Assembly (NCBI GenBank): GCA_013112585.1 | Contig: JABFGH010000005.1 | Location: forward strand, 156,501-220,500 | DNA from: Ignavibacteriota bacterium | GTDB lineage: Bacteria; Bacteroidota; Ignavibacteria; Ignavibacteriales; Melioribacteraceae | Reading direction: 5' to 3' | Length of the DNA: 64,000 nucleotides | Part shown: positions 57,420-62,444 of the stretch, piece by piece | Position numbering within the stretch: position 1 is the stretch's first letter | Layout: each line of letters opens with the position of its first letter | The notes under the pieces: generated by a model | Seen by the model: the letters and a program-made list of their open reading frames with translations, nothing else | What the model was told of the DNA's origin: nothing | The model's database searches: none | Program-made: the position numbers and the translations under genes

Positions 57420-58793
57420 ATGAAAGAAAAAATTAGAATAGCATCCGGACAAGGTTTTTGGGGCGACTTAATTGACGCTCCTTACGACCAAGTAACAAAA
57501 GGTGAAGTTGATTATCTCGTAATGGATTATCTTGCGGAAGTAACAATGTCAATTTTACAGAAGCAGAAAAATAAAAATCCGAAACTTGGTTATGCCCGAG
57601 ATATACCTGCATTGATGAAAAGGATTCTTCCCATTTGCAAAGAGAAGAAAATAAAAGTAATTACAAACGGCGGGGGAGTAAATCCGATTGCTTGTGCAGA
57701 GGCAATTTTAGAAGTTGCCGCAGAGCTAAACATTACCGACTTAAAAGTTGGCGTTGTTTTAGGGGATGACATCAAGGATAGATTTGATGAAATAATTGAT
57801 TCCGGTTGTGAATTGAATAATATGGAAACAGGGGAATCTATAAAAACCTACAAAGATAAAATGCTCAGCGCAAATGTTTACTTTGGTGCAGCGCCAATAG
57901 TAGAAGCACTAAAGCAAGGTGCCGATATTGTAATAACCGGAAGAACAACCGATACCGGATTGACTCTTGCACCAATGATTTACGAATTCAATTGGGATAT
58001 GAAAAATTATGATCTGATGTCGGCAGGTACTGTCGCGGGTCATATTCTTGAATGCGGCGCGCAATCAACCGGCGGAAATTTTCTTGGCGATTGGCAGTCT
58101 CTTAAAAATATGGCGGAAGTTGGGTTCCCAATTGCAGAAGCCTTCCCCAACGGTGAAGTGATAGTTACTAAGCATGAAGGCACCGGCGGACGTGTTGATT
58201 TTAGTACTGTTGCCGAGCAGCTTGTTTACGAAATAGGCGATCCGAAAGATTACATAACCCCCGATTGTGTAGCTGATTTTACTTCAATAAAATTAGATGA
58301 TTTAGGTAATGATAAAGTAAAAGTTTATGATGTAAAAGGATTACCCGAAACAGATTCTTACAAAGTTTCATGTTCCTATGAAAGCGGCTACTCAGCAATT
58401 GGATCACTAACATATTCATGGCCCGATGCTTTAACAAAAGCAAAAGCTGCGGATAAAATTTTACGCAAACGATTAGAAAATTTGAATTTAAAATTTGATG
58501 AGATAAATACCGAATATGTTGGATATAATTCAACGCATGGACCGCTTGCAAAAAAGATTGATGAAGATTCAATTAACGAAGTGATGCTTAGAATTGGTGT
58601 TCGATCTGATGACCGTGCATCAGTTGATAGATTCGGAAAAGAGATTGCGCCGCTTATACTTACAGGACCGCCGAGTGTTACAGGATTTGCAGGCGGCAGA
58701 CCAAAACCAAGTGAAGTTGTAGCTTATTGGCCTGCTTTAATTCCTAAAAAATTAGTTGAACCTATAGTAAAAATTATGGAATCAAAAAAATGA
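57420..58793 (+). CDS. AtuA-family (DUF1446) acyclic terpene utilisation-like protein
   Basis: 457 residues of the DUF1446/AtuA family: RIASGQGFWGD at the start, VITNGGGVNPIACAEAIL (about 80), IVITGRTTDTGLTLAPMIYEF (parts) and ILTGPPSVTGFAGGRPKPSEVVA (parts). Related proteins act in citronellol/terpenoid breakdown in Pseudomonas, but most members are uncharacterised. Its stop overlaps the start of a 103-residue partner by 4 bp. Whether it uses terpenes here is unknown. Confidence 0.85.
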   Translation: MKEKIRIASGQGFWGDLIDAPYDQVTKGEVDYLVMDYLAEVTMSILQKQKNKNPKLGYARDIPALMKRILPICKEKKIKVITNGGGVNPIACAEAILEVAAELNITDLKVGVVLGDDIKDRFDEIIDSGCELNNMETGESIKTYKDKMLSANVYFGAAPIVEALKQGADIVITGRTTDTGLTLAPMIYEFNWDMKNYDLMSAGTVAGHILECGAQSTGGNFLGDWQSLKNMAEVGFPIAEAFPNGEVIVTKHEGTGGRVDFSTVAEQLVYEIGDPKDYITPDCVADFTSIKLDDLGNDKVKVYDVKGLPETDSYKVSCSYESGYSAIGSLTYSWPDALTKAKAADKILRKRLENLNLKFDEINTEYVGYNSTHGPLAKKIDEDSINEVMLRIGVRSDDRASVDRFGKEIAPLILTGPPSVTGFAGGRPKPSEVVAYWPALIPKKLVEPIVKIMESKK

Positions 58794-59101
58794 AAATACA
58801 ATTAAGAGATATAGCACACGGCAGAAGCGGTGACAAAGGTGATGCAGCAAATATTGGAATAATTGCAAATGATGATGATGGGTATAAAATTATTGAAAAA
58901 CATCTTACTGCCGATGTAGTAAAAAAACACTTCACTGGAATTTGCAATGGCAAGGTGGAAAGATTTGAACTGCCGAATTTGCGGGCATTAAATTTTATGC
59001 TTCACAATACTTTGGGCGGGGGCGGCACGGTTTCACTTAAACATGATGCACAAGGTAAAACCTTAGCTGCGGCGCTGCTTCGTCTTGAGTTAGAGGTCTG
59101 A
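58790..59101 (+). CDS. AtuA-associated ferredoxin-fold small protein
   Basis: 103 residues; matches the small domain (RDIAHGRSGDKGDAANIGIIA) that in many species is fused to the C-terminus of AtuA/DUF1446 proteins. Here it is a separate gene overlapping the larger one by 4 bp, so the pair should act together. LHNTLGGGGTVSLKHDAQGKT (parts) is the other conserved block. Confidence 0.85.
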   Translation: MKIQLRDIAHGRSGDKGDAANIGIIANDDDGYKIIEKHLTADVVKKHFTGICNGKVERFELPNLRALNFMLHNTLGGGGTVSLKHDAQGKTLAAALLRLELEV

Positions 59102-59436: not shown

Positions 59437-59468
59437 TGCCATCGGAAAATTAATTTTTTGGAGAAAAT

Positions 59469-60570
59469 ATGTTTGAAGAACAGAGTAAACAATTAAAGAC
59501 TTATAAAGAGCGTGTAGATAAACTACGAGGTTATCTTTAAGGTTGATGATAAATTAAAAAGAATCAGCGAATTTCAGAAACTGTCTGAAGAACCGAAATT
59601 TTGGGATGATCAGAAAGAGGCGCAGAAAGTTTTACAAAAATCAAAGGCATTGCAGAATTGGGTTGATATATGGAATGAACTGGATAAAAAATACCAGGGC
59701 ACTGCAGAGTACATCGAACTTGCAGAAATGGAAGAGGATGAGTCATTACTTCCAGAGATAGAAAAAGAACTTGAAGGACTTGAAAAACTGCTCGGTGATA
59801 TTGAATTAAAAAGCATGCTCAGCGGTAGAGACGATGAAAGGAACTGCATTCTTACAATTCACTCCGGTGCAGGCGGAACTGAAGCACAGGACTGGGCGGA
59901 CATGATAATGAGAATGTATTTTCGTTGGGGCGAACAGAACAATTACAAGATGACATTGATGGATATTCTTGACGGAGACGGAGCAGGAATTAAAAGTGCA
60001 ACCATTGAAGTTACAGGCGAGTTTGCCTACGGTTATCTCAAAGCTGAAAACGGCGTTCACAGATTAGTAAGAATTTCCCCTTTTGATTCAAACAAAAGAA
60101 GACACACTTCTTTCGCTTCGGTTTTTGTTATTCCGGAAATTGATGATTCAATTGAGATAGATATTAATCCGGCTGATTTAAAGATTGATACTTTCAGAGC
60201 CGGTGGTAAGGGCGGGCAAAATGTAAACAAAGTTGAAACTGCTGTGCGCATCACACACGTTCCAACAAACACAGTTGCCGCATGCCAAAGTGAAAGGTCG
60301 CAGGGGCAGAATAAAGCTAATGCACTAAAAATGCTGAAGGCTAAACTATATCAGATAGAATTGGAAAAGCAGGAAGCCGAACTTGATGAGATTGAAAAAA
60401 ATAAAATGAAGATCGAGTGGGGAAGTCAGATCCGGTCGTATGTTTTTCATCCATACAATATGGTTAAAGATCATCGTACCGATGAAGAGACATCTGATGT
60501 ACAGGGTGTGATGGACGGCGACTTGAATAGATTTATTAAATCATACCTATTAAAATTTTCACAAAATTAA
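59469..60570 (+). CDS. prfB: Peptide chain release factor 2, programmed +1 frameshift at UAA
   Basis: RF2 ends translation at UGA and UAA. A 23-codon first frame (59469-59537) ends ...LRGYL at TAA 59538-59540; reading resumes one base later (AAG GTT GAT at 59539) and runs to 60570, giving about 366 residues in total, the normal RF2 length. The shift site reads GAGGTTATCTTTAAG: Shine-Dalgarno-like GAGG, slippery CTT T, then the stop. Most known sites have UGA at this point; here it is UAA, which RF1 can also read. The second frame has the codon-specific SPF tripeptide region and the GGQ peptide-release motif ([11 protein letters not shown]). Confidence 0.95.
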
Positions 60571-60618: not shown

Positions 60619-60963
60619 ATGAAATCGCAAAAACCAAAAAACAAAAACTCAGACTTCTTCGATAAAGTTTACGAAGTTGTTGCATTGATACCTTACGGCA
60701 AAGTAACTACGTATGGAGCAATTGCAGAAGTTTGCGGAATTAAATCATCTGCGAGAACTGTTGGCTGGGCATTAAACGGCGCATCAGCATCCGGACTCCC
60801 ATGCCATAGAGTTGTAAACAGATTTGGTGCGCTAACGGGCAGAGTCCATTTTGGTGACCCAAATTTGATGGAAGATTTATTGAAGTCCGAAGGAGTTGAA
60901 TTTGACAAGGACAACTGTGTAATTATGAAAAAATATTTTTGGCAGCCGCCTGATCTGTTTTGA
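60619..60963 (+). CDS. MGMT-family DNA-binding domain protein (alkyltransferase-like)
   Basis: 114 residues, only the C-terminal domain of O6-alkylguanine-DNA alkyltransferase: VVALIPYGKVTTYGAIAEVCG (parts) and the active-site segment GLPCHRVVNRFG. The acceptor cysteine in PCHRV is present, unlike classical ATL proteins, where it is Trp or Ala, but the N-terminal domain is absent. It may repair or flag alkylated bases. Converges on the LiaF-like gene over a strong hairpin. Confidence 0.9.
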   Translation: MKSQKPKNKNSDFFDKVYEVVALIPYGKVTTYGAIAEVCGIKSSARTVGWALNGASASGLPCHRVVNRFGALTGRVHFGDPNLMEDLLKSEGVEFDKDNCVIMKKYFWQPPDLF

Positions 60964-61045: not shown

Positions 61046-61945
61046 TTAATATCTAATAACCGTAAAAGAAGAAACACCACTGTTTACATCAATAGCTATT
61101 TTATTTTCTGCTTCATCAAAATTTCCAGTAATGTAATAACCTGATTCAGTTTTTTCAAATCCTTCTAAATCTTTGATCACTAAAACCATATCACCGGTTA
61201 TTTTACAGCCAGAAGATTTTGGTAAACTAAGTTCTAACGAGGCTGCTCCCAAATCTGCATCAACATTTGTGTAGCTATGTTTATCTCCTAATTTAATTTT
61301 TGTACTTGATGCACCGGAATTCAAACTTAAATTAGCCACTTTAAAGTTGGATAAATCCAAGACTGATTTAGCCGCACCAATATTAAACTCCAGGTCCCAA
61401 ATAGGATTCTCATTTAATTTAAGCTCAACTGTATTTTTAATTTTAGTGAAAAACAAATCCACTTTAGTATCTTCTAAATAGCAATCGATCCAAGCTGTAC
61501 TGTCGTTAAAACGTGTATCAAAAATATAATCGGAAATCGGTCCCTTTGCTTTTGAATCAATAAGATTATTTGAAGTACGTTTGATAATAAAAGCTCCAAC
61601 TCCGCCGTTTACCTCCAGGTTGGCAAATTTTACAGAGTCATCATAATTAAATGAGTAGTGTTTCACATCGTAATTATCATTCTCTGAAAAATAAATATCG
61701 CCGGAAGAGAAATTATAGAAGACCCCAAACATGAGTACCGCAAGAAAAAGTCCGAACAATGCAGAGATGAATGGTTTTGCTTTAGAATTTTTTGCAATAA
61801 CAATAATGCCCCAGAATATGAAAATAAAGGGCCATAATTCCCAAGCAAAAGACCAGCTAATATTAATTACATCATAACGAACCAGAAAAACTAAAGCTCC
61901 GATTGCAATAAAAAATGTACCCCAAAATATTTGTCCGCTTTTCAT
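61046..61945 (-). CDS. LiaF/DUF5668-type membrane protein
   Basis: 299 residues with four N-terminal membrane spans (about 5-22, 28-46, 53-70 region) and a C-terminal beta-rich domain resembling the cell-wall-active antibiotic response domain of LiaF. The N-terminus GQIFWGTFFIAIGALVFL matches the DUF5668 motif. LiaF-like proteins sense envelope stress; here no histidine kinase lies next to it. It lies 7 bp downstream of pspC on the same strand, a pairing common in Bacteroidota. Confidence 0.85.
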   Translation of the reverse strand: MKSGQIFWGTFFIAIGALVFLVRYDVINISWSFAWELWPFIFIFWGIIVIAKNSKAKPFISALFGLFLAVLMFGVFYNFSSGDIYFSENDNYDVKHYSFNYDDSVKFANLEVNGGVGAFIIKRTSNNLIDSKAKGPISDYIFDTRFNDSTAWIDCYLEDTKVDLFFTKIKNTVELKLNENPIWDLEFNIGAAKSVLDLSNFKVANLSLNSGASSTKIKLGDKHSYTNVDADLGAASLELSLPKSSGCKITGDMVLVIKDLEGFEKTESGYYITGNFDEAENKIAIDVNSGVSSFTVIRY

Positions 61946-61952
61946 AAAATTC

Positions 61953-62444
61953 TCATTTATTTTTTTTAGATGAGTTCCAAATTAATATTATACCAACTGC
62001 AATTAATGCCAATGGCAGAAAGTCTTCAAAATCAAAATATGAAAAATATTGTTCGGCAAGAAAGATGAATCCGAATGAAATTAAGATTAAACCCACAACC
62101 ACTCTGCCTCTGTTAGCTTTCTTCTTTGCTTTTTGATTATAGTACTGAACAGGATCAAATTCATTTTTGCTTGAACTTGAATCATCCTTAACATTTTGGT
62201 TTTTATCATCTCCACTATTTTCAGAAGCACCCGGCGGATTATTTAATGATGAGTATGGCACATCACTTTCGGGAATAATGATCCATAAAATTATGTAAAG
62301 GAAAATCCCAAACCCATTTATAACGGTGATAATGATAAAAAGAATCCTCACAATAATAGGGTCTAGATTGAGATATTCTGCCAAGCCCCCGGCTACTCCG
62401 CCAAAGACTCGGTGTATTTTTGATCTGTATAAGCGTTCGTTCAT
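61953..62444 (-). CDS. PspC-domain envelope-stress protein
   Basis: 163 residues: N-terminal PspC domain (RVFGGVAGGLAEYLNLDPIIVRILFII in parts) with one membrane span, an acidic linker, then two more spans near the C-terminus (about 110-125 and 137-155) of the LiaI/DUF5668 type. It likely forms an envelope-stress unit with the LiaF-like gene downstream. No pspA or pspF is present in the window. Confidence 0.88.
   Translation of the reverse strand: MNERLYRSKIHRVFGGVAGGLAEYLNLDPIIVRILFIIITVINGFGIFLYIILWIIIPESDVPYSSLNNPPGASENSGDDKNQNVKDDSSSSKNEFDPVQYYNQKAKKKANRGRVVVGLILISFGFIFLAEQYFSYFDFEDFLPLALIAVGIILIWNSSKKNK

Follow-up and report, generated by a model that had tools for sequence, protein, structure and literature searches.

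In the textbook feedback loop of release factor 2 (RF2), the sensor within prfB is an in-frame UGA, and the logic of the loop needs a stop codon that is read by RF2 only. The codon UAA is read by release factor 1 (RF1) as well as by RF2. A consensus published in 2013 gave the frameshift motif as YTT_TRA_C (PMC3711429), and among 8,164 motif-bearing genomes surveyed more recently TGA accounted for 98.6%, TAA for 1.4% and TAG for none, with the Discussion of the same study putting TGA above 99% (PMC12421855). In that survey, the TAA sites are described as occurring in several phyla, with no broad fixation in particular clades; RF2 is argued to be still effective at them, so that they are expected to stay sensitive to it, and an association is drawn between TGA usage and motif loss. 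A C directly after UGA is regarded as weakening termination and favouring the shift (PMC5009743). In PMC5009743, the largest series of CUU frameshift mutants used UAG, which indicates that CUU frameshifting can proceed without UGA. A further comparison comes from Bacillus subtilis, in which replacing the UGA stop of rsbV by UAA led to a loss of induction on depletion of either release factor, as given in the available portion of the report (PMC8073009).

The window, namely the whole stretch of 64,000 nucleotides analysed here, contains a prfB gene that an earlier note on this DNA had described as split by a +1 frameshift, with UAA in place of UGA as the in-frame stop and with the Shine-Dalgarno (SD)-like GAGG and the slippery CTTT retained. 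Our analysis bears out each of these descriptions (Table 1). The body frame encodes RF2, as it scores 517 bits against TIGR00020 (prfB; cut-off 370) and stays under the cut-offs of the RF1 models; joined to the leader, it yields a product of 366 amino acids. The spacing between GAGG and CTT is 4 nt. The RF1 gene, whose comparison had been recommended, is encoded separately elsewhere in the genome (77 contigs, 99.97% complete) with PAT and GGQ present, and it is the one further PF00472 match besides prfB. With an RF2 body, a short open reading frame (ORF), CTTT, an SD-like element and a stop readable by RF2, the gene belongs to the prfB +1 frameshift class; it departs from the canonical UGA form in its TAA and in a next base G instead of C. 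Apart from UAA replacing UGA, the window prfB has the standard layout of a programmed +1 frameshift gene, and for genome annotation it is otherwise ordinary.

Table 1. Features of the prfB locus in the window (positions of the window)
Feature	Position	Strand	Basis
GGAG, probable Shine-Dalgarno element for prfB initiation	59460..59463	+	sequence
Zero-frame leader ORF: ATG at 59469..59471, 23 sense codons ending in LRGYL, in-frame stop	59469..59540	+	sequence; order-wide leader length
Internal SD-like stimulator GAGG	59527..59530	+	sequence; conserved at TAA sites
Slippery CTTT: slip codon CTT (59535..59537) in the zero frame, TTT in the +1 frame	59535..59538	+	sequence; conservation
Sensor stop TAA replacing TGA, next base G	59538..59540	+	sequence
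RF2 body, in the +1 frame exclusively, from AAG (59539..59541) to the final stop TAA (60568..60570); SPF, GGQ, HTSFA	59539..60570	+	TIGR00020; motifs

Compared with a canonical CTT TGA C prfB, the locus shares the 23-residue leader, the SD-like element, CTTT, the obligatory +1 shift, the RF2 body and a separate RF1, whereas it differs in the TAA, in the next base (G here; A, T or C in other members) and in a Lys instead of an Asp after the slip. The earlier note had taken UGA to be the stop of the known autoregulatory sites; UAA is, however, a documented minority form, at 1.4% of the genomes in the survey as available (PMC12421855). The UAA form itself is thus already known, and the single gene is not exceptional. 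As for the rsbV swap (PMC8073009), both cases involve a change from UGA to UAA at a stop sensitive to release factors; the rsbV change, in the accessible account, was however engineered and concerns the terminal stop of another gene, with no frameshift.

We surveyed the site throughout the order of the window genome, a count over related Ignavibacteria that the earlier note had proposed as a check. Of its 164 genomes, 146 gave an RF2 match and 18 did not at the threshold applied. Two genes whose start is cut off (G091, G025) were left out of the 144 loci read, and two that are truncated short of the site (G102, G157) were excluded, leaving 142 readable prfB genes, 137 of which show the frameshift layout of a short ORF followed by a body in the +1 frame; the other five are motif-free. 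TAA occupies 65 and TGA 72 of these 137 motif sites, with no TAG. The window's own family, Melioribacteraceae (f1), contributes 49 TAA and 16 TGA sites as well as the five motif-free genes, Ignavibacteriaceae (f3) 14 TAA and 53 TGA, and a third family (f2) two TAA and three TGA. Both stops were found within a single genus, g36 (G137 and G138), and TAA also occurs in Stygiobacter electus 09-Me (L214), the record of which is not marked as a metagenome-assembled genome.

Beyond the order, we searched a class sample of 391 genomes (91 in the order, 300 outside) with the pattern YTNMGRRGBTWTCTTTAA and a matching TGA pattern, so that the counts outside the order are by pattern, not gene by gene, and sites whose upstream bases differ, as in family f15, are missed by both. 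Among the 300 outside genomes, the TAA pattern gave 22 matches, one of which lies at prfB (G278); 15 that were fetched are not at prfB and six lie away from the place of RF2. The TGA pattern matched 242 of the 391 genomes; 49 of these belong to the order, which leaves 193 outside it (a pattern-level hand count). Six f15 genomes had one inside match, and in the two of them that were fetched (G178, G187) the TAA is an ordinary final stop. Seven best matches from other phyla were examined by script, six showing CTT TGA C and one (L270) no motif. Three stray matches were rejected as prfB sites: neither C3, a second hit of the TAA pattern in the window genome, nor C54, a hit in G012, gave an RF2 match, and the exact TGA motif of the motif-free G096 lies in another gene, tyrosyl-tRNA-synthetase-like by eye.

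Sequence comparison revealed that the cassette is conserved at the TAA sites. The slip codon is CTT in all 65 TAA and all 72 TGA sites, while the gene bodies use CTT for 1,223 of their 3,775 Leu codons (32%). At the TAA sites, the slip codon is preceded by TAT in 62 cases, and an SD-like GAGG, GGGG or GGAG is present in all 65; Leu and Arg codons near the site vary among synonyms. The leader has 23 residues in 134 of the 137 motif sites of both kinds, and an SD-like tetramer lies ahead of the prfB start in 118 of the 137. The anti-SD sequence CCTCC is present in the 16S rRNA of two TAA-bearing members of Melioribacteraceae; a search for 16S gave no match in the draft genome of the window and succeeded in three of six relatives tried. 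Given the conservation of CTT, of the SD-like element and of the leader length, the TAA site appears, by conservation, to be maintained as a frameshift site, in keeping with the earlier opinion that it looks functional: the cassette is complete and recurs across species. At 62 of the 72 TGA sites the stop is followed by C; the 65 TAA sites have G there in 35 cases, A in 25, T in three and C in two. The residue after the slip is Lys (60) or Asn (5) at TAA sites and Asp (69) or Glu (3) at TGA sites. In 61 of the 65 TAA genomes, the RF2 residue following HTSF, which we take to be position 246 of Escherichia coli RF2, is Ala; one has Ser and three were not matched by the pattern. RF2 with a residue of the Ala or Ser type shares UAA reading with RF1, according to the available part of PMC5373646.

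These data enable us to propose a putative model of how the site works. Ribosomes would translate the 23 leader codons and come to a pause once UAA occupies the A site. Upon slow termination, pairing of GAGG with the anti-SD sequence together with the CUU-U slip would shift the tRNA-Leu to UUU, after which AAG would be read next and translation would continue into the RF2 body; upon fast termination, the 23-residue peptide would be released. In a simple competition, the frameshift fraction would equal k_shift / (k_shift + RF1 termination + RF2 termination), and the response to RF2 would shrink to the share of RF2 in UAA reading. Since RF1 reads UAA, RF2 would still repress its own synthesis with a reduced share of control, and RF1, by terminating at UAA, would act as a second repressor of RF2 synthesis. 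The earlier expectation that UAA, being open to RF1, should weaken or change the RF2 feedback is soundly reasoned, and the rsbV swap in B. subtilis provides an analogue. Taking the sequence evidence together, we think it likely that the gene is a working RF2 autoregulatory frameshift, at which UAA is also read by RF1 and the RF2 feedback persists in diluted form.

The stops found at the site speak to the role of RF2 in it. A single transition would turn TAA into TAG, which would specify Arg in the body frame. Among 180 ORFs from sampled family genomes of the TAA type, 35 terminate in TAG, as do 11 of the window's 57, and Arg (AGG or AGA) stands at the sensor place in two of the five motif-free relatives. 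Yet none of the 137 motif sites of the order carries TAG, so an RF2-readable stop seems to be required; a site indifferent to RF2 would at times drift to TAG, and RF2 sensing is thus probably retained. If the TAA sites are taken as 16 independent draws, the probability of seeing no TAG would be about 0.009. This number of draws comes from a tree of RF2, a single-gene tree of 147 rows built by a quick method, in which many branches are weak and not all families are monophyletic. Parsimony on this tree counts 16 changes of the stop, compared with a mean of 46.7 and a minimum of 36 in 200 shuffles of the labels; equally short histories consist of 16 gains of TAA, or of one gain and 15 reversals. 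With one origin and 15 reversals few events would be independent, and the argument from the absence of TAG would then be weak.

One group with strong support (SH-aLRT 99) has TAA throughout, in 30 of 30 genomes from eight genera. The TAA minority of PMC12421855 resembles the present sites in carrying CTTTAA at the same place and in being kept among strains or species; it differs, in the available text, in not being broadly fixed, whereas TAA here reaches nearly half of the motif sites in the order (65/137), three quarters in the family (49/65) and the whole of the eight-genus group. Tentatively, and at somewhat less than an even chance, we suggest that TAA has been held across genera and is not a passing mutation, and that in Melioribacteraceae and some relatives the RF2-only sensor has become a sensor of the total UAA-terminating capacity, with RF1 repressing RF2 synthesis, so that the output of RF2 would follow the balance between the two factors.

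Several other explanations of the TAA sites have to be weighed against this diluted feedback. A sequencing or assembly error, a broken gene or an internal start instead of a frameshift could be suspected in a draft genome of 77 contigs, but we regard this as scarcely credible: 65 species carry TAA at this position, which argues against chance or a base error, and in the window no start codon occurs in the body frame ahead of a TTG at 59650. Across the TAA genomes, the median position of the first ATG, GTG or TTG in the body frame is codon 42; for ATG by itself, the first one never precedes codon 10 and has its median at codon 91. Initiation inside the body would therefore usually cost the protein some of its N-terminal domain. 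AT-biased mutation alone, turning G into A, would suit an AT-rich genome such as this one (GC of the window 0.347). Nevertheless, we rejected base composition as the cause, because GC3 of prfB shows no difference between TAA and TGA genomes (0.336 versus 0.329, p=0.17; within the family 0.321 versus 0.326, p=0.98), and the equally AT-rich Ignavibacteriaceae keep TGA in 53 of 67 sites, which renders this explanation improbable. The change might instead have been driven by the protein, a basic residue after the slip being favoured and the identity of the stop being a by-product. The Lys and Asn of TAA sites, set against the Asp and Glu of TGA sites, would fit such a preference, as would the Lys (3) and Arg (2) found after the former slip codon in the motif-free genus g20; the coupling of residue and stop is however forced by the genetic code and cannot alone show which of the two was selected. 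We hold this explanation to be unlikely, and it is compatible with diluted feedback.

A further possibility is that the frameshift still yields RF2 while the site has become blind to RF2, UAA being covered by RF1, so that output would be constant and low and the site would be a stage toward loss of the motif. Loss of C after the stop together with access of RF1 is expected to strengthen termination; with UAA followed by G or A (35 and 25 of the 65 sites) and not by C, termination may be strong and frameshifting low, which speaks against a working switch. The rsbV swap was release-factor agnostic (PMC8073009) and shows that a sensor based on UAA can fail to respond when RF1 or RF2 is depleted. 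Motif loss did occur in genus g20 (G096-G100; L124, L131, L133, L134, L135), all five members of which have an in-frame prfB without a frameshift motif; the genus lies within the TAA-rich family, beside two TAA genomes in the quick tree (support 74), and shares a basic residue at the place with the TAA sites. Mean TGA stop usage is also somewhat higher in TAA-type genomes, at 0.23 versus 0.16 in 21 versus 19 genomes, although the p-value of 0.026 is a weak one and comes from a series of several tests. However, the eight-genus TAA group keeps both CTT and the SD-like element, and an idle sensor would be expected to drift to TAG or to lose its T, while TAG is absent from the 137 motif sites of the order. 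We accordingly judge a blind site to be quite unlikely, and prefer the diluted feedback.

The unexpected part of these findings is that Melioribacteraceae mostly use UAA. Our literature search found no published account of UAA abundance in the order or the family, the supplement of PMC12421855, which covers TAA genomes and perhaps relatives of these, lying outside that search; the dominance of UAA in the family thus appears unreported. It qualifies the statement, in the available text of PMC12421855, that TAA is not broadly fixed in clades. A clade with both TAA and TGA offers a natural experiment on whether autoregulation survives when RF1 reads the stop, a question answered by argument alone in the accessible part of the same study, and what UGA specificity contributes to RF2 autoregulation becomes testable by comparison.

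Loss of RF3 (prfC) was also considered as a cause of the TAA sites and was not adopted, any such link being tentative at best. The distribution of RF3 in the order is patchy, with 66 of 164 genomes matching at an E-value of 1e-100 or better; for the window genome, no RF3 match exceeded the curated cut-off (best 215 bits, cut-off 467). In genomes at least 90% complete, TAA accompanies the absence of RF3 when relatedness is ignored (TAA 14 with and 36 without RF3, TGA 30 with and 22 without; p=0.003), but inside the family it does not (11/26 versus 2/9, p=0.70), and only two independent pairs stand on supported branches.

Upstream of prfB, positions 57420-59101 hold an AtuA family gene (PF07287) and a gene for an AtuA ferredoxin-like domain (PF23544). 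The motif R[ML]E[LI]E, resembling the C-terminus of the latter, occurs within 420 bases upstream of 56 of the 137 motif sites, which suggests that this neighbourhood is partly conserved in the order. Downstream, a small protein (60619-60963) consists of the O6-methylguanine methyltransferase DNA-binding domain (PF01035) alone and has PCHRV at the place of the acceptor Cys of active enzymes; it may be an enzyme domain or an alkyltransferase-like protein. Further on, at 61046-62444 on the minus strand, a PspC-domain protein adjoins a LiaF-type transmembrane protein (Pfam), possibly forming an envelope-stress pair.
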